DNA from: Puccinia triticina
Lineage: Eukaryota > Basidiomycota > Pucciniomycetes > Pucciniales > Pucciniaceae
NCBI RefSeq assembly: GCF_026914185.1
Contig: NC_070572.1
Span: forward strand, 1,674,001 to 1,738,000
Direction of reading: 5' to 3'
DNA: 64,000 nt
Shown one piece after another: positions 19,646 through 41,935 of this stretch. The notes beneath the pieces are model-generated. The model saw nothing but the letters and a program-made list of their open reading frames with translations, was not told the origin of the DNA and ran no database searches. How positions within the stretch are numbered: position 1 is the first letter of the stretch; each line of letters opens with the position of its first letter. The position numbers were made by a program, and so were the translations under genes.

Positions 19646-20789
19646 AGTGAAGAATTGATGGTTTAGTTGGTATACTAGAGGCCAAGGCGGCTGCGCCGCT
19701 GCAGGGTCTCAAGAGAAATGGTTGTCTTGCTGCACTGGTATACAATTGGAAAAAAACACCGGAAAACAAAGAATTCATTCTGGAATCTCCAAAATTGATC
19801 AAAAAAATTTCCCCATCTTGTTTGGTTTCTTAGGCAAAAAGTGATACAGTTTGCGGCCATTTTCCTACTAAGCCCTTTGCACACCCCTTATATTTCAATC
19901 TCTGTTGAAACACCATTGCAAATAGTTTATCAGCTCAAATAATATGCAACATTGAAGAATTCCTGAAAGTTTTGGACTATGAGTCTGTGTGGGTGTGTAA
20001 CAACAAATTTATATGTGTTAGCAGTCATTTTACTACTAATCCTGCAGCTTACCCCTTATATCTCATTTTAATTTCCCTGTTATAAAATAAATAAAAAATC
20101 ATAAATTTTCAATGATTTAAAATACTTTAACAATGTGTTTCAAGTTGCATTTGCAAAAGCCAGCCTGTAACTGCTGTTTTCAGGGGTATTCATTTATCCC
20201 TCAAGGCTACCTTTAGCTTACTATTTTTTTGATATTTTATGATATGCTACAGTTATGTGTAAATTTAACAGCCCACCGTTGTAGCACATGATTACCTCAT
20301 GCCAAGGGCTGTCATGCATGGCCTTGCTTGGCAAGATCTCACACCCACTACAGAGTGCTTTTTTGAGCTCAAATCTGCTCATGATGATTCATGGGTTTGG
20401 CTCAGGAGTTAAGCAGTGCAGCTTTGAAACATGCAGGGAGAAAATTGGCCAAATAGTTCCCAAACTTGGCTGGAAAAATCAATTTTTTTGTAATTTGGAA
20501 TCAGCAAAAGGTACATCCAAAAAGAGGGACCATCAAAAATTGATCAAATGGTTAATTAATCAACACTAAAGATCACAGAAAATCAAAAAAGGACAAGACA
20601 AGGATATACCCAAAGGGGATTTTATTCAGAAAGATATCAATTATTTAGCTGTGATCTTTATCAAAATTGATTTCTAAAAGTGGATAATGCTTTAGATTCA
20701 TAAGATAATCTCTGAGATATAGAATCATTTTCAAGTTATGATCCTCTATAGGTTGAGAATGCATAGGGACTCAGTAAGAGTGGGATATA
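19646..20789. other. AT-rich spacer with relics of a dispersed foldback family
   Basis: A GC hairpin at about 19679-19706 resembles the one at 13957. The stretches near 19860-19910 and 20030-20070 (CCTACTAAGCCC, then ACCCCTTATAT) match the arms of the foldback element at 60836-62628. Nothing coding is supported. Confidence 0.45.
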
Positions 20790-21912
20790 TCCACTCGATG
20801 GCCTGGTGTGCCGGTCATTGAGCGGGCTTAGACCCACTCGATGACTGGCGTGTGCCGGTCATCGAGTGGGTTATGTATCCACTCGATGACCGGTGTGTGC
20901 CAGTCATCGAGTGGGTTATGTATCCGCTCGATGACCGGTGTGTGCCAGTCATCGAGCGAGCTGAGACCCACTCGATGACTGGCGTGTGCCGGTCATCGAG
21001 TGGGTTATGTATCCGCTCGATGACCGGTGTGTGCCGGTCATCGAGTGGGTTATGTATCCACTCGATGACCGGTGTGTGCCGGTCATTGAGCGGGCTGAGA
21101 CCTGTAAGAATTCACAAACTGAGAGAATTTTATTTCTAAGTCAGGTTATATGCACAATGAAGGAGAGCAAAGTGCTCTTAAGAGTGTGAGGTGAAGTAGG
21201 TCATGCTCTTACCTGAGAGCAGGAACGCTGGCGCAAATGAGTAAAGAAAAAGAACAAGTGAAGAAAGAAAGCTGAATCGCTTGAGAGCGGTCTGACAAGG
21301 AAAGCGGTCTAAAGTTTAGACAGGAAAGTGAGAAAAGGGAGTAGAAAAAGAATTGCAAAAGGCGCGGCGAGATGATGATGAGTAGTGAAGCTGGATAGTA
21401 GCGGTAAAACGGTGAGAAACGGAAATTTTGTGAGCAACTGTTGATTGATGATTGTGTAAAAGGGAAGATGGTAGGCTGAGAGAGACGAAGAGGATGAGAG
21501 AACCACGTTAGCCATTGGTCTCAACAGATCCTCCTTTTATAGTCTTTTTAGCCCAATCTCGCAGAGAAAAACTCTTACGGTAAGACAACGGCCAGCCCAG
21601 TCAGAATGGTCCTGTACCGTCTAGGGGTTCATGTCCCCCATGGAGACATCCTGGGTGAAACCAGGGTAGTTGGAAGTGGAAGTTCAAGCATCATTTTCTG
21701 TAGACACGGTAACAAGCCAGATTAGTTTTATTCCGCCCATTGGAGTGAGGTGGCTTGCTAAGGGTCTGGTTACTTACTGGAGGCAACGGGAACCTCAGCG
21801 TCATCATGCGAACTCTGACAAGACCCACTTGATGACTGTCGTGTGCCGGTCATTGAGTGGGTTATGTATCCACTCAATGACCGGTGCGTGCGGGTCATCG
21901 AGCAGGCTGCCG
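20790..21912. repeat. Palindrome array, locus 2, split by a solo LTR
   Basis: Units of GATGACCGG-TGTGTG-CCGGTCATCGAGTGG followed by GTTATGTATCCACTC repeat from 20790 to 21097 and resume at 21821-21912. The spacer TGTGTG is shared by nearly all units here and differs from other loci. This points to local homogenisation. Confidence 0.88.
21103..21820 (+). mobile_element. Solo LTR (718 bp)
   Basis: It begins TGTAAGAATT and ends CTCTGACA (TG...CA). It is flanked by perfect 5-bp direct repeats AGACC at 21098-21102 and 21821-21825, inside a unit of the palindrome array. No internal region is present. It is the product of LTR-LTR recombination after a retrotransposon inserted into the array. Confidence 0.85.
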
Positions 21913-26129: not shown

Positions 26130-29100
26130 AGCCCGTGAGGCACGCTAGGTTAAATGACGAGGGGGTGCACACATTGTGTGAGATAACACCCCCGCGATGT
26201 GAGTCCACGATCCTCCCTTCTCAGTCATATTTATCAGAAGCATCTGGCAAGCCATTACCTCTTCAAAAAAGCGCAGGAGCACGACTATCCGTCGACGCCG
26301 CTAAGGTTTCTTGGTCTACATCCGCAAGACTGGCCGCCGAAGCAAAGAAGAGCGACCCAGAACTATTGGCCAATGAGCTAGTTCAACGACGGTACCATCA
26401 ATACCTTGACATGTTCCAAAAGTCCGGAGCCCAGAAGTTACCCCCCGCAGGAAGTACGACTTCCGAGTGGACCTCGTCCCGGGGGCACTGCTGCAGGCCA
26501 GCCGCATAATCCCACTCTCGCCGGCCAAAAACACGGCGCTCAATGTGCTGATCCGGGAGGGACTGGAGAACGGGACCATCAGAAGGACAACCTCCCCTTG
26601 GGCGGCCCCGGTCCTATTTACCGGGAAGAAGGACGGCAATCTCAGGCCTTGCTTCGACTACAGGAAGCTGAACGCGGTAACCGTCAAAAATAAGTACCCC
26701 CTCCCGTTAACCATGGATCTGGTGGATAGTTTGCTTAATGCCAACACTTTCACCAAGCTTGACCTCCGCAACGCGTATGGCAACCTGCGGGTGGCAGAGG
26801 GTGATGAGGAGAAGCTTGCGTTTGTTTGTCGGGCCGGGCAGTTTGCGCCTTTGACAATGCCCTTTGGCCCTACTGGAGCCCCCGGATTCTTTCCATTTTT
26901 CATCCAGGACATCCTGTTGGGGCGCATCGGCAAGGACACGGCGGCGTACCTCGACGATATCATGATTTACACTCAGAAGGGTTCAGATCACAAGGCGGCC
27001 GTCAGCAGTATACTAGATATACTCAGCAAGCACACGTTGTGGCTCAAGCCAGAAAAATGCAAATTTTCGCGGGCGGAAGTGGAATACTTAGGTTTATTGA
27101 TCTTGTGTAATAGGGTGAGGATGGACCCCGGAAAATTTAAAGCAGTGACGGACTGGCCAATCCCCGCAAACATCACGGAACTGCAACGCTTCATCGGATT
27201 TCCTAATTTCTACCGGAGGTTTATTGACCATTTCTCCCGAACCACCCGACCTTTGCACGATCTGACGAAGGCCAACCAGAGTTTTGTATGGAGCATACCG
27301 TGCCAGCAGGCCTTTGACACCCTGAATACGGCGTTCACGACGGTGCCGGTGCTCAAGATCGCCGACCTGTACCGCCCGTTCATATTGGAGTGTGACTGCT
27401 CTGATTTTGCACTGGGAGCAGTCCTGTCGCAAGTCTGTGAGCAAGACGGGGAGCTTCATCCGGTGGCGTTTCTTTCCAGATCCCTAATCCAAGCGGAGCG
27501 GAACTACAAAATCTTCGATAAAGAGCTACTCCCCATTGTAGCATCCTTCAAGGAATGGCGACATTACCTAGAAGGGAACCCCAACAGATTGGAGGCCATA
27601 GTTTACACCGACCACCGAAATTTGGAGAGCTTTATGACGACCAAGAAGCTGACGCGCCGTCAAGCACGATGGGCCGAGACACTTGGTTGTTTTGACTTTG
27701 AGATTGTCTTCCGACCGGGGAGACAAGCCAGTAAACCAGACGCACTGTTGAGACGTCCGGACTTGGCCCCAAGACAAGGGGACAGGCTCACTTTTGGGCA
27801 ACTTTTGCGACCGGAGAACATTACCCCAAAGACGTTTGCGGAGGTTGCGGAGGCTGCGGAGATCGACGAGTGGTTCCTCGATGAGTCGGTGGACCTGGAA
27901 GACGCCGACCGTTGGTTCCAGGTGGACGTGTTGGGGATCCGGGAGGAGCAAATCAACTCGACGGTCATCTCGGAAGGGGAAGTACTTTCTGATATAGAAA
28001 TGTTATCCCTGATCCAGAAAGCCACCGCTAGTGACCCTAGACTGATGAAGTTGATGGAAAATTGTGCGGAGAAGGCGGGACGGCGGGATCCGCAGGAGTA
28101 CACACTGCACGACGGGTTGGTCTATTGACAAGGCCGGATTGAGGTACCGGCCAACAATGACATCAAGACTGCAATTCTCAAGAGCTGTCACGATAGCCGG
28201 CTAGCGGGACACCCCGGAAGAGCCAGAACTTTGGTGCTTGTGCGGCGCTGTTTCTCATGGCCATCAATGAAAAATTTTGTCAACCAATACGTCGACGCCT
28301 GTGATTCTTGCCAGCGCGTAAAGCCGTCGCTTCAAAAGCCTTTCGGGACTTTGGAACCCCTTCCAATACCTGCAGGCCCGTGGACTGACATTTCCTACAA
28401 TCTCATTACCAATTTACCTGAGTCCAACGGCGCCGACTGCATCCTAACAGTTGTAGACAGACTGACTAAAATGTCTCACTTCATCGCATGCAGGAAGTCC
28501 ACTACAGCCAAAGGGTTGGCGGATTTGATGATCCGCCACGTGTGGAAGTTACACGGAACGCCTAAAACGATAATTTTGGACAGAGGTAGCGTGTTTATAT
28601 CTCAAATCACGAGAGAACTGAGCAGACGGTTGGGGATACGGTTATGCCCGTCGACAGCTTACCACCCTCAAACAGATGGCCAGTCAGAAATCGTCAATAA
28701 ATCCATTAAACAATACCTGCGGCATTTCATCGGCTATTGACAGGATGATTGGAAGCCACTGCTCGCAACAGCCGAATTCGCATACAACAACAGTGAACAC
28801 CAGTCCATAGGAATGTCACCATTCCGGGCCAACTACAGATTTGACCCAACGTTCGCGGACGTGCCGTCTTCGGACCAATGCCTACCAATGGTGGAGGCTC
28901 GCATGCGGAACTTAGCAAAGGCACAGGAGGAGCTGACGGCAGGGCTCGAAGAGGCGCAAGAATCAATGAAACGGCAATTTGACCGCAGCGTCAGGGAGAC
29001 CCCAGATTGGAAAGTTGGAGACGCGGTTTGGCTTGACAGCCGCCATATTTCAACAACAAGGCCAAACGCCAAATTGGGGCATAGATGGCTAGGACCATTT

Positions 29101-29472
29101 GCTATCTCATGCAAAATATCCCCATCTGTATATAGGCTGACTCTCCCAATTTCCATGCGTGGAGTACATCCAGTGTTTCACGTGTCAAAACTCAGGAAAC
29201 GCGCGATGGACACAATCCCAGGACGGACAGCGGATCAACCGGAACCAGTCGTGGTCGAAGGACAGGAGGAATGGGAGGTGGATCAGATTTTGGACTGCAG
29301 GAAAAAGGGAAAGCAAAACGAGTATCTTATCAGTTGGAAGGGATGTGGACTGGAGGACAACTCGTGGGAACCGGAAAACCACCTGACAAATGCGCAAGAA
29401 CTGTTATTGGATTTCAACTCAAAATATCCAACAGCGGCGGCACGGCACCGAAGGTCAAGGAGATTCAAGTGA
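26130..29472 (+). pseudogene. Ty3/gypsy chromovirus (element B) pol polyprotein
   Basis: Domains appear in order. A degenerate linker (26130-26450) is shifted out of frame at a C-run near 26443. Reverse transcriptase follows (LRPCFDYRKLNAVTVKNKYP, then AAYLDDIMIYT with the YLDD catalytic pair). RNase H shows LECDCSDFALGAVLSQ and ERNYKIFDKELLPIV. The HHCC zinc module has AGHPG and CDSCQRVKP. The integrase core has D in PWTDISYNL, D in IILDRGSVF and E in GQSEIVNKS. A chromodomain (EEWEVDQILDC, YLISWKGCG, DNSWEPENHL) ends the protein at 29472. Two TGA codons, at 28126-28128 and 28738-28740, replace tryptophan codons. The chromodomain would target integration to marked chromatin. Gag and protease are not visible. 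Confidence 0.93.
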
Positions 29473-30234: not shown

Positions 30235-30640
30235 TATCTCATAATGGCGGACGCACTATTCAGAGTGGTGGACGCACTATTCAGAGTGCTTGCCGCACTT
30301 TTGATAGCGCCAGCCGCACTTTTCATAGTGGCGGAAGCACTTTTGATAGTGGCAGACTGACTATTCAGAGTGCCGGAAGCACTTTTGATAGTGCCAGATG
30401 CACTTTTGATAGTGCCAGACGCACTTTTGATAGTGCTGGACGCACTCTTCATAGTGGCAGACACACTTTTCATAGTGACAGACACACTTTTGATAGTGGC
30501 GGACTCACTTTTCAGAGTGCCAGACACACTTTTGATGGTGGCGGACACACTTTTCAAAGTGGCGGACGCACTTTTCATAGTGGCAGATGCACTTTTTGTA
30601 GTGGTACTGGACACACTTTTCAAAGTGCCAGAGGCAGATT
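30235..30640 (-). repeat. 21-bp minisatellite inside the hAT element
   Basis: About 19 degenerate copies of a 21-bp unit, with CGCACTTTTGATAGTGCCAG as a typical form. On the minus strand the unit encodes a heptad such as MKSASAT and stays open for a 227-codon frame. The same array occurs in the relative at 61480-61860. Whether it is translated is unknown. Confidence 0.85.
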
Positions 30641-30900
30641 TTTTTGTGTTGCACCAAAGGGGCTGGTATAGGGCCTGTGCAAACTCATCTGGGGCCTTTG
30701 GGCCCTAGAGAAGCTTGCATTGGCCCTGGCCTCTATGCGCCCCTTTGAGCCATTATTTGAATTTTTCTGAATATTTGAGCTTAAATTTGCCCAGGCATTA
30801 GGGGGTTTCAAAGTTGGCAGATCCCGCGTCCAGGACCGGAATCAGGTCCCAGGAGCAGGGAAAAAATTCCCCCGCCAAATACAACCTGATACTTGTGTAA

Positions 30901-32015
30901 GGGCCTGTACCATAGCTTTCCGTGGATTCACACCTCGGATTCCGAGCCGCCAAAAATACCGGTTCGTCAGGATTATTTTCCCTGCACGGTTTCCCCGAGC
31001 TCAAAATCCGACCTGCTCCAAAAGGCGTACCATGGGACCGCGGATTCATCAACAACTCCTTGGTCACCGGTACTGAACGGTCAGCCAGAGCGGTACACAC
31101 CGGCCATCGGGAACATATTCCCCTCGATGGCAGGTCCGTTCAGTCATTGAGGGCTCCCTTCAATGGGCTGTCCTCTTAGTGGCCATCGAGATAAGTATAC
31201 ATTATACACTCCTCAAGATGACCGGAACAAACCGGTCATCGAGAGGAGTATGTACTCCTTAAGATGACCGGAACAAACCGGTCATCGGGAGGAGTATGTA
31301 CTCCTCTAGATGGCCGGAATGAACCGGTCATCGGGAGGAGTGCATACCCCCTCAATGATCGGAACGAACCGGTCATCTATCTACTCCTCAAGATGACCGG
31401 TTCGTTCCGGTCGTTTTGAGGAGGACATCTTTCTCTCGATGACCGGTTTGTTCCGGATCTTGGGGAGTACATACTCCTCTCGATGACCGGAACGAACCGG
31501 TCATCTCGAGAAGTACATCTTCTTCTCGATGACCGGAACAAACCGGTCATCAAGAATGTGGCGAGTGACTATTGATGGCCGGTACAGACCGGGCATCAAC
31601 GGAGGTGTGGACTCCTATCAATAACCGGTCTCCACCGGCCATTGAGAGTGCAGAACCTACTGACCAGCCATCGGTGGAGGGTGTATGCACTCCGCTTGAT
31701 GACTGGCTTCGGCCGGCCATCGAGGGTGTAGTGAGCTGCTCTCGATGGCCGGTACTCACTCCATGGGTAGGGGAGGCGATACGAGGATGTGCTGTGTATC
31801 TGATGGTGCGGGTGGCTGGGGAAGGCGTACATAATCCGAGGTGAAAAAAATAGGTCCGACCTATTTTTCCAAACTGAGGAAAACAGACCATTTTCCTCGG
31901 ATTATGAGGACGCCAATTAGGCGCTATGGTACTCCGGATTCTGGGTCGCTCGGATTTCACAGAAAGTTGCGAATCCCGGGCGAGATCCTTGGAATCCGCG
32001 GGCTATGGTACAGGC
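30901..32015. mobile_element. TIR element inside the Harbinger 5' region
   Basis: It is bounded by GGGCCTGTACCATAG and its exact complement. The flanking triplets TAA and TCA are near-matching. It consists of subterminal GGATTC words and the palindrome array at 31040-31770. A GGGCC start and a 3-bp TWA-like target suit a non-autonomous PIF/Harbinger element, but the family is inferred from termini only. Confidence 0.75.
31040..31770. repeat. Palindrome array, locus 3
   Basis: About 15 units of GATGACCGG, AACAAA or AACGAA, CCGGTCATC, joined by GAGAGGAGTATGTACTCCTC hairpins. From about 31560 the arms change towards GATGGCCGG and the spacing loosens. It lies wholly within the TIR element at 30901-32015. 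Confidence 0.9.
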
Positions 32016-32168
32016 CCTCAGTCTCCATCCTCTTCAAATCTTGCTGTTGTCAACGGTCAGCTTAAACTTTCTCTGTAAGTCATTTTTTCCATTCTTCATT
32101 CCAAGACACTTGTTTTTGATCAGTTGATCTAAATTCCCTGCCCCGTTCCACAGCTTGTACTTACACAG

Positions 32169-33541
32169 ATGGTTCGCACCTCAACACGGAAATCGATGAT
32201 TTGTCAGTTGGAGAGTGCCATTGAAGACACACAGATGCAGGTTGCTGTTTTAGGATTACTCGGTCTTGATGAGGGAGATTCATCCGACAGCAGCACTGAT
32301 AGCTCAGACGACTCAGACAAAGACTTTGAAATCAATCAAATCTATGATTTACAAACTACTCTTGCGGCTCTTCTTTCGTCTCGTTACCTTGCACATCGTA
32401 ACCCAGTCGCCAAACCACCATTCATCCACGAATATCTCATGCATGATCTAGATGAAAAGCGATTTAAACAAGAGTTTTGCATGTCTCGCAGCGCCTTCTT
32501 AAAGCTATGCGACCAAGTCTCTAACGATCCGGTCTACCATAATAACTCTCAAAACCCACAGAGGCCTGTCTGTGAGCAAATGATGGTGGCTTTAAAACGT
32601 CTTGGATGCTTTGGAAATGCGGCTTCTGTGGGCATGATGGCTAGGTTCTTTCGACTTGCAGAAGGTACTGTTGAGCTCTACACCGATCGTTGCATCATGG
32701 CCATCTTACGGCTTCAAAATCAGCTTCTCAACTGGCCAAATGAATAAAAGCGGAAATCTCTGAAGGATCAGTACTGCAATCTTGGATTTGACGGATGCAT
32801 TGGGCTTATTGATGGCACCTTGGTGGTCTTGCATGAGTGTCCGCAGGAAGATGGATCCGATTACTATTCTCGCAAGGGATTCTACGCCATCGCCACTCTC
32901 ATTGCATGCGATCAAGAAAAGAACATCACTTATGTGTATACGGGATGGCCAGGCTGCTCCCACGATCAACGCATGACCAGTAACTCTGGACTGACAAAAA
33001 CTCCAAACAATTTCTTCTCAGACGGCGAGTACATCTTGGCAGACTCCGCTTTCGCACCCACACCAAACATTGTCCCTGCTTTCAGGCGCCAACGCGGAAT
33101 CCAACTTACTGACGATCAGCACAAGTTCAATCACTACCTGTCAACAGTCCGCGTCCTTATTGAAAACTGCATCGGACTTTTGAAGGGACGATTTCAAAGC
33201 CTCAAAGGCCTGCGCATGCGGATAATGGGGAAGAAGGATTTGGTGCGAGTGACTTCCTGGATAATGGTAAGCCTCCTCCCTGCCACTTTGATAATCTGCT
33301 GGTCTTAATTCCTGTTCGCTAATATCAATTGGAACAGGCATGTGCGGTGCTTCACAACTATCTGAATCAGACCGACAGCTTTGATCCCAGTGTTCTTGAT
33401 CCAGATTCATCTGAGCTAGAATTACAACCACAAGAAAATCCACAAACAGATTCAGATTCAATTGCTCTCCGTCCAACTCTTGCTGGGATAAACAAACAAA
33501 AAGATGTAATGACTCGTGTTTTATCTTTTCTCAATGATTAA
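32169..33541 (+). pseudogene. PIF/Harbinger DDE transposase (HARBI1-like), one in-frame stop
   Basis: This is the DDE transposase that would cut and paste the surrounding element. Two exons (32169-33266 and 33338-33541) are joined by a 71-bp GT-AG intron and give 433 codons, the usual size for the family. The N-terminus is acidic (DSSTDSSDDSDKD). Then come FIHEYLMHDLDEKRFKQEF and MVALKRLGCFGNAASVGMMA, the helix-turn-helix part. The catalytic domain has D215 in CIGLIDGTLV, D292 in YILADSAF and E332 in VLIENCIGLLKGRFQSL. The second exon completes a family-typical AVLHNYL ending. A TAA at 32745-32747 (codon 193) splits the protein just before the catalytic domain; a single C-to-T change in CAA would explain it. 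A 5'-UTR intron is likely (GTAAGT near 32075 to CAG before the ATG). Confidence 0.92.
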
Positions 33542-33664
33542 TGTTTGAAAATTGATTTCTACTCGAAAGAAACATGTTTTGTTGCCTTTTTTGCACAACC
33601 CTTTAATTTTAATACTGAAAGGGTGCGCTTGTAAGACTGGGGACACATTTTTCTCCAACGTAAT

Positions 33665-35057
33665 TTAATCATTATCAGGAAACATGGCAGTTCCGAAGGC
33701 GCGGCTTTCTTCCAATGTCCTCATAACAAGTGGGTCTGTAGTACAAGTTTGTAGGTCTTTGGCAATCAGACACATCGCAGCCTCCGGTAACATTGCCTTG
33801 CGCACAAGATAATCGGGTGATACTGGGTGGACCAATGCAGTAATTGGGGCAAGATGAGTGGTATCTAAGAACATTGAATGGAGTGCCCGATAAATTTCTT
33901 GATAACCTTGGACACCATAGCTTCAAAAATTTAAATAAAAAATCAGTTTCAATTGTATTGGGGTTGGATTAGATCATTGACTCAACTATCCTGGCTGCTC
34001 AAGCTCCAATGTCCCCATCTCACTGAAGATAATTCGAACTTTGGTAGGTCCAAGATCGTTCCAGCCTTTCAAAGCGGCATCCATGAAAGATGATGGAATC
34101 TCTCTAGCAAAGACCTTTCGAAAATAAATTTCATAAGATTTGACCCGCCTTTGATGAGAAAAAGTGTTAGAATTATTTAAAATGATCAAAAAACTACAAA
34201 TATCCACCCAACTTGTTGAGAGCGTCAAAGTCAATTCTACTGGGCCATCCTCTTTCAATTCCTTCCGGAATAACAGTGGCCTCGGCCCGATGAAGCTGGC
34301 AGTACCCAGCAGTCCTAGGAAACTAAGATATAAGATATATTGAGGTCCACTGTTTATTAAATAACAGTAACACCAATCCATCAAAAAAAAGTGTGTTGTC
34401 ACTCACGGGTAGATGTAACGCCAGCGGGTTACTGAGTTCGATCCTACTTCGAACTTCTGGTAAGTTCTTGAGATAGTTGCCGAGCTTTGTGAGCTTTTCT
34501 GAAGGCGCCTGTGGAAGCTCCTCGTCACAAAAGCAACATAGCTTATCTGTTCAGCGCAAACTTTAGTATCTTTTCATATTACAATGGAAGTAAGTAGGTA
34601 AAAACATACTTGGGTCGTCAAAAATTGGTTCATTCCTCCAGTCAGCGGGCAAGTCATTGTCGGATAGAAGAGCTGGATCAATTGTGGCTTGAATCCGATC
34701 ACTCCCCTCTTTCGGCGCATTAGCACCAAAATTATGTAGCGGTAGGCCTTGCTCAGCCAGAATCCTCTCAATATCCCCCCGAAGATCTGGAACCTGTGTG
34801 CCTGCTGTTGGCTTCTGTAAACGGTTTGAGCGAGTGCTTGAGGAGGTTGCAGTCGTATAACATTCCAATTCACTGTGCGGTTCCACAGATTTGGGTAGCG
34901 CACGAGATCCACCAGCAGTTTCCGGCTCAATTTTTTCTGATTTTGCTAGAGATGAGATCTTTTTTCGGCCTTTGCCTTTGGACTGCTTTTGAACCGGTAT
35001 CTTGAAGTTGAATTTGCACTTGAGTTTGGCGAGGATATCAAAGGACTTTTTGGGCAT
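33665..35057 (-). CDS. RTC4-like protein carried by the Harbinger element
   Basis: Five exons on the minus strand (35057-34610, 34546-34407, 34322-34213, 34148-33990, 33920-33665) join in phase to 370 codons. The N-terminal third is basic and low in structure (KQSKGKGRKKISSLAKSEK). The rest matches the RTC4 domain: CCFCDEELPQAPSEKL, then CQLHRAEATVIPEGIERGWP followed by SRIDFDALNKRV, then YGVQGYQEIYRALHSMF and AMLPEAAMCLIAKD. RTC4 takes its name from restriction of telomere capping in yeast; its biochemical role is poorly known. The fourth intron lacks a GT donor (GG then AT), which may be a disabling change. The ATG at 35057 is preferred to an in-frame ATG at 35204, which would leave only 34 bp to the divergent gene. 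Its place between transposase and SANT gene makes it a passenger or accessory gene. Confidence 0.85.
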
Positions 35058-35238
35058 CTTTACTTTGGAGAATTCGGAATCTTTGAAAGCAATACGACGT
35101 GGAGGGATATTTGAAAAAGCCACGCTTTTCAGCCACTTTAAGTGTGGGTAAAAATTGCTCAACTTATGACTTTGCTCTAAACTTTCCATTGGAAATTCTA
35201 CCAACTAAACAATCGAACTCCAACTACTTTAGCAGCCA
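35058..35238. promoter_or_regulatory. Candidate bidirectional promoter
   Basis: 181 bp lie between the start codons of the divergent RTC4-like and SANT-like genes, so both must share promoter sequence here or overlap each other's 5' region. I cannot point to a clear TATA box. Confidence 0.4.
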
Positions 35239-35839
35239 ATGGCAACCAATCAAACAACCTCCACCCAAAGGATCGAATCTGAAAGAAGAATACGGATACC
35301 ATGGGACCGAGATGGAGTTGATGGTAGAAGCTCAAGCATTCAAATCATTGTCCGCTGGCTTGCCATGCCAAACAACTATGATCGGTGGCAGGGTCTCGAT
35401 CCAGATGGGATGACTAGACAAATGCTCTGCTTGGAAATAATGAATCTTCTGAATGAACAAGGCATAAATCACCGTGATTTAAGAGGTATGTTTCTATAAC
35501 ATATGATAATTGTTTTATGTTTATAAATATTTCTAAAGTAGCTTGCTTTCCTTAGGAGTACACACACAAGTCAATAATCTGATAGAATCCTACAGGTTTG
35601 CTTATCAATTCATGATTCGTGCAGAGATGGCTAATAACCAGCATGGCAACGAAGTGGTTATGGGTGAATATTATTTTTTTCAGACATGAAGTGATGGCGA
35701 ACCTAATTTGACCCAATCATCATTTTGATCTTCAGCTCGCACTCGAAGGTTATGCCGCTACTGGGATGTCTTGACACCTGTGTTGAGCCAAGATATCATA
35801 GAAGATGGATCGGATTCTGCATCAACCAATAGCTCCTGA
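35239..35839 (+). CDS. Small SANT/Myb-like protein of the Harbinger element
   Basis: Three exons (35239-35485, 35556-35663, 35736-35839) with clean GT-AG introns give an uninterrupted 152-residue protein. The core reads WDRDGVDGRSSSIQIIVRWL, then a spacer, then MLCLEIMNLLNEQGINHRDL, then a third helical stretch VNNLIESYRFAYQFMIRAEM. This three-block layout parallels the Myb/SANT-like protein that PIF/Harbinger elements encode beside the transposase to bring it to the terminal repeats. The same blocks recur in the longer gene at 36121-37952, so the two are paralogues. The C-terminus is short, acidic and serine-rich (DGSDSASTNSS). The domain name is inferred from the pattern and the context. 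Confidence 0.7.
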
Positions 35840-36120
35840 TTTAATATTGCAAATCACTCCTAAATCTTCTTGTGTTCAGGCTCAAAGTTTTTGAATTCCA
35901 GATTGATCTTTTTTCTGATATTTTACAAAGATTTTTTCCAACATTGAACAAGCAAGACAGCAAAGCATGTATGTGATGATTTGATGAAGTTCAGTGAGGC
36001 AGAGCATATCACGAAAGCTTGACAGAATCCAAGGGAAAACCAACACATGGTGAGAGGAGATATCAAATGAAACTAAAGGCACGATCGAGAGGAAAACACC
36101 TGCAAATAGCCTATTCAAAG

Positions 36121-37952
36121 TTACAATTATTCGGAATCTGAGTCATCCGAGTCATCTGCCTCTTTGCGGATGTTGCTGCTACCTTCGCCCTTCTGGAAAT
36201 GCTTGTTGAGGAATTGTTCGATGGTGGCTTGGTCATAGCCCTGGGCCTTCAAATCTTGCATAAATTGAAACCGGGCTTGTACCTCCTCCTAGCTTAACTA
36301 AGCCTCTTGAATGGAGGGTCCGGGGGACCCCGCCCGGAGGGCTCTCCGCAGGAGAGGCTTATGAGTTATGTCTTGATTTAAGCAGGAGCAGAAAGGATCT
36401 GCTACACTAAAAATCCCAACCAATATGGAAAAACTGAATACACAGAGCTGTAGGTTCTGTTCTTGCAATCAATTTGAGCCACTTATCTATCTTGTAGCCA
36501 GAAAAACAACTCCTGGAGTCCCAAACAAGTGGAGCCTCATTTGGAAGACTTGTGCATTTTTGATCTTTTGAAAAGGTCAACAGATTGAGATAGAAAAAAT
36601 CTGAGTAGACCAAAATGTAGAGAAAGAAAAGTAGCATAGGGTACAGATAGGGCATATTGGTGGAGAGGCTGGGGGAGGAGCTATAAAAATTTTAAAAACC
36701 TCTCAGCCAAATGAACTTTCTGCTCCCGCGTAAAATTTGGGATAATGCACAAGTCCCTCCCTGCGGGAGGGGCGGCTTCGCCGCCAGCCACAGCGCTCCC
36801 ACCAGGGGGGACTTGTGTTAAGTTAGTACCTCCTCCATCTCCGCTTTCCGTACTCGCAAGTTGGCATCCATCTCAAGCACATTCATTTGTTGCTCCTCCA
36901 ATCAAAGCTTTCTTTTCTCTCGAGAGTCGACCATCTTAGCCCGAACATTTTCTGCTTCAATCTTCAACCGATCACGCCGTTCTTTGGATGCAATACATTG
37001 AGCGCGGTAAATTTTGGTCTCTTCAATAGCTTTTTCAAGAGGCAGAGGCTCGCGACCTAAGACATAAATAAGTAAGAATAATGTTGGTCACTTCGTTGAA
37101 ATAAGTTTAAGCACAATGCGAGTCAAAAAATAACATACCTTTACTAGGCCTGCGTTTTGCAGCGCCAGATTGAGCTCCAATCGGATTTTCTGTGGCCACC
37201 GGAGTTGAAGAGTTCGGGGGAGAGTTTTGGTTATCATCTATTCTATTAATCTCATTAGTGCTCTGAGAATCATGCTCGTTGTCGTCTACTTCACAATTCA
37301 GCAAGTCTGGAACACCACTGTTGGTCAATTCCACCGTGACTTCAGGGTTCGCACAGCTTTGTGTACCCATTATGGGATTTAATTTGTCCCAATATTTACA
37401 TCTCTTAACTAACGCAGCTAGTTAATTAATATCAAAGGCAAAATATTCAGCTGTTGATGAACAATCTGAGAATCAGACGGAGAGGGAGGTAAACTAAGAC
37501 TAACCAGGAACAGTTGATGTGCCATTTAAAATGTCTTCCTCAAGAACTCCAGCTCCAGTGTTACGAAGCCAATCACTTGCCTTGCTAAACGCTCCCTGAA
37601 GCTCTTGCATCTTCTCCTGAATTCCTTTGTTATCACGGTGCGTTATTCCAGCACCTTCCATAATCAGCAAGATCTCCGAGGCTAAAGCCGATTTGGTCAA
37701 GCCGTTTCTCGTATCACCTCTCCTGCGCTGGTAGTTGCCATCAACAGCAAGCCAATCGAGCAAGATTTGTATACTTGAGATCCCATCTTCACCATCCTTT
37801 TCCCAACTGACAGGCTTTTGGCGTTTTTCAGCAGCAGAGTTGGTGGTGTTCGGTGTCAATTGTGAGTGTTTCTCAGCGGCTGATTTTTGTTTCCTGGCCG
37901 GTTGGGTGGATCCTTTTTGGGAGTTGGTGGGATTTGGTAGAGTAGGAGCCAT
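36121..37952 (-). pseudogene. Longer SANT/Myb-like protein of the Harbinger element, interrupted
   Basis: The first exon (from ATG 37952 to about 37505) encodes a basic leader and the SANT-like block: WEKDGEDGISSIQILLDWLA, LTKSALASEILLIMEGAGIT, then KGIQEKMQELQGAFSKASDW. A second exon (about 37370-37107) is polar and acidic. A third (about 37060-36837) is a predicted coiled coil (EKAIEETKIYRAQC, RRDRLKIEAENVRAKM). It is broken twice: by a TGA read from 36904-36902 where CGA would fit (TCG context), and by a 537-bp insertion at 36290-36826. Beyond the insertion the coiled coil continues to an acidic end (EADDSDDSDSE, stop near 36121). It is a paralogue of the gene at 35239 with an added dimerisation tail, and probably a DNA-binding partner of the transposase. 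Confidence 0.7.
36290..36826. mobile_element. MULE-like insertion in the second SANT gene
   Basis: Perfect 10-bp direct repeats TACCTCCTCC (36280-36289 and 36827-36836) flank 537 bp. The ends are imperfect inverted repeats (TAGCTTAACTAAG versus CTAACTTAACACAAG in complement). Each end carries a GC-rich hairpin module. Target duplications of 9-11 bp are typical of Mutator-like elements. The disrupted reading frame on both sides proves insertion. No transposase is present. Confidence 0.75.
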
Positions 37953-38493
37953 TGAGTTTGGTTTCGTGGATATGAAAGAGTTGGATAGAATATTTTATAG
38001 GGTGATGTGATGAAAAAGTGCGGTGTTGAAATTATTGAGCGAGTGGTGGGGCCAAGAGAGCAAGAAGGCAAGCTTTTATTAAAAGAAGTATACATATGTA
38101 TATGATTGCACCCAGGTGTGATGATGGGAGCGGGAAAGTGGAGTTGGTGGAGTGGTTGAGTGATGGTGGGACTTGGCCAAGTGGGAATGCTGGATCAGTG
38201 GAGTGATAATGTGAAGGGATACATACGGAATTGGGATGTTGGATGAGTGTTCGGGCCCCGGGGGATGAGATGGATGTGAAATTTTTGCCGGTTTAAGACA
38301 TAATCTCCTGGTCTTCTGTGGCAGAAAGGACCTTTCCTGACTGCTAGATCGAGGAAGGAGATCAGGTCATCAGAAGCCAAATCAGGAACTTTTTTTTTCC
38401 TGATTTTGAGTTCTGGATCCGCTCCTGGAAGCGGGATCTGCCAACTTTGAAACCCCCTATTATTCAACTCAAATCAAATTCAAAATACAAATA

Positions 38494-40200: not shown

Positions 40201-40739
40201 CGCTATCACCCCCTTTCGCAGAGCCTAGAATCCCAGTTTGGCTGGGTGGTTTATTCAAACCAACACAGTTTCTTGCACTCACAACATTAGAACTTAAAAA
40301 TTGGCTTGGCACAAAGCCTTGCATCTTGCGCATCATCCCACACAATCTAAGCTAAGTTACACCCCTTCTTCAAGGTTAAAAAAATTATCAAAGTCAACCA
40401 AACCTTGAAGTTTACTGAAGTCGAGTAACAGAGAAGATCCGTGCTCACATACTTATAAATATACTTTTTTTTTTGACTTACAGTCAAGCCTCTGAGCCCT
40501 TGATCGCCGGCACAGACCCGCCATCAAGACCGCATAGCCCTCTGGATGACCGGTAAAGACCGGTCATCGAGAGGGATATATACAACGCCCTGGATGACCG
40601 GTACAGACCGGTCATTGAATGGATATGTAGAACCTCTCAATGACCGGTCTGTGCCGGTCATTGAGGGGACTCGACACTCTCAATGGCCAGTACAGACCGG
40701 CCATCGAGAGTATACAACCCTCTCAATGACCGGTCTGTG

Positions 40740-41739: not shown

Positions 41740-41935
41740 GGTCTGTGCCGGTCATTGAGGGGACTTGACACTCCCAATGACCGGGATCGACCGGTCATCG
41801 GAAGGACTCGACCCTCTCGATGACCGGTACTGTGCCGTTCATCGAGAGGGCTTTATCCTCTCGATGACCGGAACATACTGGTCATTGAGAGGGTCGAGTC
41901 CCCTCGATGACCGGTCGATTCCGGTCATCCTCAAG

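Follow-up and report, generated by a model that had tools for sequence, protein, structure and literature searches.

In this work we have analysed a window of 64,000 nucleotides from contig 15 of Puccinia triticina (positions 1674001-1738000; the genome comprises 122.8 Mb in 18 contigs, and locus names such as C2 or C11 give the contig number). A DNA transposon, recognised from its terminal inverted repeats (TIRs), target-site duplication and gene content, spans positions 30800-38458 of this window, and it holds a transposase gene, a gene with an RTC4 domain and two SANT-like genes, SANT-A and SANT-B. Its features are the following:

30797..30799, no strand: left target-site duplication ATT
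30800..30866, + strand: left TIR, beginning AGGGGGTTTCAAA; also recovered in an independent inverted-repeat search
32169..33541, + strand: DDE_Tnp_4 transposase gene; exon 1 to about 33266 and a short exon 2 from about 33340, by eye
33665..35057, - strand: RTC4-domain gene, 371 amino acids, open; five exons with GT-AG joins
35057-34610, 34546-34407, 34322-34213, 34148-33987 and 33920-33665, - strand: RTC4 exons of the spliced model
35239..35840, + strand: SANT-A-like gene; first-exon frame 35239-35499, later exons by eye
36178..37952, - strand: SANT-B-like gene, C-terminal part charged, broken by an insertion at 36290-36826 and a further in-frame stop
38392..38458, - strand: right TIR; also recovered in the independent inverted-repeat search
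38459..38461, no strand: right target-site duplication ATT

The TIRs are identical at 56 of 67 positions and the flanking 3-bp ATT duplication is perfect. A preliminary description of this DNA had placed a transposase and an RTC4 gene within one such pair of repeats, and this was borne out by Pfam: the stretch 32748-33266 scored 106.7 bits to DDE_Tnp_4 (PF13359, cut-off 24.8) and the spliced five-exon RTC4 model 45.2 bits to PF14474 (cut-off 23.7), a family to which the RTC4 of the C2 copy scored 60.8 bits and the resident RTC4 gene described below 64.9 bits. Three single RTC4 exon frames gave no Pfam match when left unspliced, and one exon alone was detected, at 27.7 bits, in a six-frame PF14474 search. 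The same description had named two SANT/Myb-like paralogues. The two proteins are indeed related to each other (40% over 80 amino acids, E 3e-15), but SANT is a weak label for them, because neither matches Pfam and the best Myb/SANT score, that of a relative's SANT-B to Myb_DNA-bind_4, is 15.4 bits, below the cut-off of 27. A single-sequence structure model of a SANT-like protein is helical, at a pLDDT of 54. The transposase keeps its three catalytic acidic positions, and D, D and E are aligned in 10 of the 11 transposase copies checked, the eleventh being substituted at one of these. The window copy is decayed: an in-frame TAA at 32745-32747 interrupts the transposase, and SANT-B has the insertion and stop; its RTC4 reading frame is intact. 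The TAA, the insertion and the stretch at 30900-32017 described at the end had gone unnoticed in the preliminary description.

Does RTC4 accompany such transposases elsewhere in the genome? A six-frame genome search with PF14474 found 14 RTC4 places, 13 of them above the cut-off, and a query with the resident RTC4 protein recovered the identical 14. The corresponding search with DDE_Tnp_4, in which 150 of 395 candidates were scored, gave at least 151 matches. At 13 of the 14 RTC4 places (12 of the 13 above the cut-off and the sole sub-threshold one, C11:4552271) a DDE_Tnp_4 match lies at a distance of 0.3-3.9 kb, and all 13 pairs stand tail to tail; as a yardstick for chance, the 5-kb surroundings of all listed DDE_Tnp_4 matches together make up about 1.2% of the genome. 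In nine copies RTC4 lies between matching ends, so the repeated co-occurrence within TIRs that the preliminary description had looked for was found. The unpaired RTC4, C12:5894592, has no transposase, SANT-like gene or matching end pair in the 20 kb around it. Its neighbours are frames with XPC-binding/UBA (RAD23-like), GDT1 and Dfp1/Him1-DBF (DBF4-like) domains, and its long outer parts resemble, by eye, those of the protein P0005 (656 amino acids). We regard it as a resident gene. The sole RTC4 outside elements is thus a separate gene on contig 12, and the opposing case of the preliminary description, an RTC4 that is syntenic and single-copy at this locus in relatives without the transposon, did not arise.

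The transposon copies exceed the Pfam cut-off for the RTC4 domain (PF14474; yeast Rtc4) and share this domain with the resident rust gene, from which they differ in form: the resident protein has long outer parts, whereas the modelled transposon proteins are short (371 and 396 amino acids) with a basic N-terminus. Most copies carry a C-x-F-C ... Y-C-x-x-H pattern preceding the helical domain, from which C1a and C15b deviate, and we infer that this pattern binds zinc. One RTC4 copy is 96% identical to a P. triticina protein over 56% of its length and the C9 RTC4 agrees by eye with PTTG_28588. The RTC4 searches of protein databases returned 8 proteins each, those named being all from Puccinia, and the locus tags among the database RTC4 and transposase matches contained no adjacent RTC4-transposase pair.

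Evidence for mobility comes from C2:5528843, C1:9161282, C6:2331392 and C11:2697892, which are 98.9-99.6% identical pairwise over 5.9 kb and lie at four sites. Each of them holds the transposase, RTC4, SANT-A and SANT-B between its repeats and has its own duplication. Because four copies of about 99% identity at separate sites enclose RTC4 between repeats, RTC4 moves as part of the element. With this 5.9-kb type the C9 copy shares 77% identity over 5.0 kb. The second copy of the window subfamily, C11:1991413-2003431, is 97-99% identical to the window across the shared stretches compared and is enlarged by an insertion with long frames, retrotransposon-like by eye. Gene order varies among copies and gene content is nearly constant. 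The C2 type has the order SANT-A, transposase, RTC4, SANT-B; in the window SANT-A stands between RTC4 and SANT-B. At C8 the transposase, RTC4, SANT-A and the left end are present, and SANT-B and the right end were not found in the 20 kb around; the ends of the C10 element enclose the transposase, RTC4 and SANT-B, and SANT-A was not found there. Three loci (C15:1324339, C17:1375008 and C11:4552271) were examined in part.

Seven copies are flanked by ATT (the window), AAT, ATT, AGA, ACT, AAT and AAT, two other bounded copies have flanks with one mismatch (GAT/AAT and ATC/ATT), and counted over all 12 bounded copies the duplication is perfect in 10 (AAT 4, ATT 3, ACT 2, AGA 1). AGGGGG is found at both ends of all 12, with imperfect TIRs of 55-68 nt. 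We also considered a 2-bp TA duplication and rejected it, since reading the ends as GGGGG..CCCCC leaves the C2 copy without TA on its left; with the ends taken as AGGGGG..CCCCCT and a 3-bp duplication beyond them, 7 of 7 copies are accounted for. Three deletion derivatives of 2.07-2.09 kb (C4:8133924-8135990, C7:1507284-1509350 and C3:1390794-1392882), with perfect duplications ATT, AAT and ACT, retain just the two outer parts of a C2-type element, the transposase and RTC4 having been lost together. The preliminary description had envisaged a TIR family lacking RTC4 throughout; what we found lacking it were these derivatives of one subfamily, which are without transposase too. They share one structure, in which the first exon of SANT-B is kept at 98% identity, and look like a young non-autonomous subfamily. 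The end motif of the window occurs at 15 places in the genome at up to 3 mismatches (control 0), a looser end pattern at 391 places against 56 for the reversed control, and the C2-type end at 41. As there are only 14 RTC4 places, most elements with similar ends are without RTC4, and the motif is not by itself a marker of the RTC4 lineage. At C10:4951133-4951291 a fragment of a SANT-like gene touches the outer side of the left end of the C10 element, as if the element had landed inside another SANT-like gene; the other half of that gene was not found in the right flank read.

Which transposases, then, travel with RTC4? Of 321 candidates for comparison with one RTC4-linked transposase, 111 were scored, and in order of similarity the top 12, nearly full-length matches of 44-100% identity, were all RTC4-linked loci; pieces of the thirteenth (C17) ranked next, interspersed among the RTC4-less loci that matched best. 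A tree of the transposases places the RTC4-linked loci in a single group (support 0.95), which includes proteins of P. striiformis, P. graminis and P. sorghi. Five RTC4-less loci are its sister group and two more lie further out, which makes seven more distant loci examined that lack RTC4. One sister locus, on C16 (L001), has a similar left end and a SANT-like gene, and no RTC4 in the 3.5 kb read. The RTC4 and transposase trees agree in outline, with the resident RTC4 as root of the former; both trees were rooted on outgroups that we selected, and support is low at some inner nodes (0.00-0.66). Inside the transposon type fall two RTC4 proteins of P. graminis (support 0.95). Distances of RTC4 and transposase are strongly correlated (Mantel r = 0.94 for 10 loci, 0 of 20000 permutations), and in a subset of 8 loci without close pairs the observed value was reached by 3 of 40320 orders. 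Outside the genus, a DDE protein of the tardigrade Ramazzottius varieornatus (P0044, RvY_02306) is 40% identical over 97% of the transposase query, the sole named non-Puccinia match among the 50 transposase matches listed.

The coding sequences have been under constraint. Between the C2 and C9 copies the ratio of nonsynonymous to synonymous rates (dN/dS) by the NG86 method was 0.13 for RTC4 exons 2-5 (222 codons) and 0.25 for all of RTC4 (381), compared with 0.12 for the transposase (370 codons), 0.16 for SANT-A (67) and 0.14 for SANT-B (235). YN00 gave 0.21 for SANT-B and no value for SANT-A. These low ratios indicate that RTC4 is kept for its protein, in its conserved part with almost the strictness seen for the transposase.

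With RTC4 inside the TIRs, mobile, co-inherited and under purifying selection, we consider it very probable that one transposon lineage gained RTC4 once and has kept it as a selected component. The gain would have preceded the divergence of the subfamilies, and RTC4 would since have been retained beside the transposase and the SANT-like protein or proteins. If this is so, we rather favour the view that RTC4 works within the transposition machinery or at DNA ends. The transposase would cut and join DNA, the SANT-like proteins, by analogy with the two-protein PIF/Harbinger system, would bind the element ends, and RTC4 would be their partner in the nucleus, its most likely part being that of a helical, zinc-binding adaptor that acts either in the transposition complex or on the host's handling of broken DNA ends. 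A bolder version makes RTC4 an obligate third subunit, derived from the host protein that influences telomere capping in yeast, that handles or shields DNA ends, or the checkpoint triggered by them, at excision and integration. This we find doubtful; if true, RTC4 would for the first time have a molecular role, and the control of telomere ends would be connected with that of transposon ends.

Several points weigh against our interpretation. The three deletion derivatives have moved although they contain neither an RTC4 nor a transposase gene, which shows that RTC4 is not required in cis. A degenerate transposase that belongs to the RTC4-linked group, C2:7778695, has no RTC4 in 4.5 kb and none nearby in the genome-wide search, and RTC4 is likewise absent at the transposase fragment C2:7870410 (76% over 86 residues). 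The P. striiformis RTC4 groups with the transposon type at a weak support of 0.46. By YN00, dN/dS rises to 0.23 for RTC4 exons 2-5 and 0.38 for all RTC4, the transposase having 0.15, and among the four young copies there are too few differences for this measure. Finally, the genomic context comes from one genome, in which the window copy is itself broken.

The main alternative, compatible with the claim for the element as a whole, is that RTC4 benefits the element by an indirect route, countering silencing or acting on host physiology in a manner comparable with the TET/JBP and SET genes borne by transposons. It would account for the retention of RTC4 equally well, but we know of no epigenetic activity of RTC4, and on balance think this rather unlikely. 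TET/JBP genes are carried by several rust transposon lineages and SET genes by HarbingerS (PMC12730594); according to the same source TET/JBP genes cross transposon superfamilies, whereas RTC4 keeps to one transposase lineage, which suggests a tie to the transposase and is our reason for favouring the transposition complex or DNA ends. Could RTC4 instead be a passenger that was picked up once by chance and has travelled along without a role? Transposons commonly capture genes, the function of RTC4 is unclear and the deletion derivatives are mobile without it. Against this, RTC4 has been retained while the transposases diverged to 44-60% identity, it occupies a constant tail-to-tail place at 13 loci, and its dN/dS is low and it co-diverges with the transposase. 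A mere passenger is therefore improbable. The preliminary description had allowed for either a passenger or a working part; selection and co-divergence make the latter the better fit, and its function we only infer. A resident RTC4 does exist on contig 12; that a transposon simply landed beside a duplicate of such a gene is refuted by the four copies of about 99% end-to-end identity at separate sites, and the nine copies that enclose RTC4 in matching ends at distinct sites leave such a coincidence practically no chance.

To which group does this element belong? Judged from its sequence the superfamily is PHIS, so the label PIF/Harbinger given in the preliminary description holds for the superfamily; it does not hold for the group proper. 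In the available sections of PMC4482050, target duplications are TWA for PIF/Harbinger and CWG or TNA for Nuwa, whereas the Pangu group, described from three basidiomycetes, has ANT duplications, AG/GG ends, two open reading frames and TIRs of 11-40 bp. Nine of our 10 perfect duplications fit ANT, one is AGA and none is TWA, and the ANT duplications together with the AG ends point to Pangu rather than to PIF/Harbinger proper. This affiliation is read from duplications and ends. With Pangu the element shares the 3-bp ANT duplications, the AG-type ends and a DDE transposase with a second protein; it differs in the added RTC4, in the second SANT-like gene of most copies and in its imperfect TIRs of up to 55-68 nt, and RTC4 is absent from the Pangu description in those sections. 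PIF/Harbinger proper has in common with it a DDE transposase with a separate Myb/SANT-like partner, and to our knowledge no RTC4 occurs in that group. PHISTA, the TET/JBP-carrying Harbinger-type transposons of Puccinia, agree with our element in superfamily, genus and the combination of a transposase with extra genes, and differ in their TA duplications, the TET/JBP gene and a third protein that lacks Myb/SANT (PMC12730594); the words 'rtc4' and 'transpos' do not both occur in the available text of that paper. No TET/JBP match to Pfam was found in the 8 window pieces scanned.

We found no report of a transposon-borne RTC4 in the available text of the literature searched with RTC4 terms: PMC9370660, PMC5948300 and PMC6162548 tie RTC4 to no transposon in the sections seen, and 'rtc4' was not found in those of PMC12210899 and PMC3579696. 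Yeast Rtc4 is described as a protein of cytosol and nucleus, of unclear function, that is genetically linked to telomere maintenance (PMC6162548). In rusts, 45 RTC4 proteins in Puccinia novopanici, compared with 15 in P. sorghi, have been read as a help against DNA-damage responses (PMC9370660). Since 13 of the 14 RTC4 places in our genome are linked to a transposon, and since two RTC4 proteins of P. graminis and, at the weaker support, one of P. striiformis group with the transposon type, this published expansion may reflect transposon copy number, P. novopanici itself lying outside the genome analysed here. A Harbinger-type element that carries RTC4 would be a simple reason for the many copies per rust genome. 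As a selected, co-inherited transposon gene, RTC4 directs attention to DNA ends or the transposase complex, and it joins YqaJ, SET and TET/JBP among the accessory genes of the PHIS superfamily (PMC4482050, PMC12730594).

Two further stretches of the window element are lacking from its sister copy on contig 11:

30900..32017, no strand: about 1.1 kb close to the left end, with no counterpart in the sister copy when the two are compared
36280..36836, no strand: nested insertion 36290-36826 plus its 10-bp duplication TACCTCCTCC, missing from the sister copy

The first has, by eye, an inverted repeat at its borders, is rich in inverted GACCGG/CCGGTC repeats and is probably a nested element. Such repeats are seen at 31200-31560 inside the transposon and again at about 20780-21096, 40500-40733 and 41750-41930 of the window, and this recurrence outside the transposon suggests a separate dispersed element. 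The second is the 537-bp insertion in the SANT-B-like gene, with its 10-bp duplication at 36280-36289 and 36827-36836. Immediately to the left of the transposon, at 30240-30640, lie degenerate tandem-like units (e.g. GCACTTTTGATAGTGCCAGA) that are open for more than 110 codons on both strands, and at 28231-29472 two frames resemble, by eye, the end of a Gypsy retrotransposon pol gene that codes for integrase and chromodomain.

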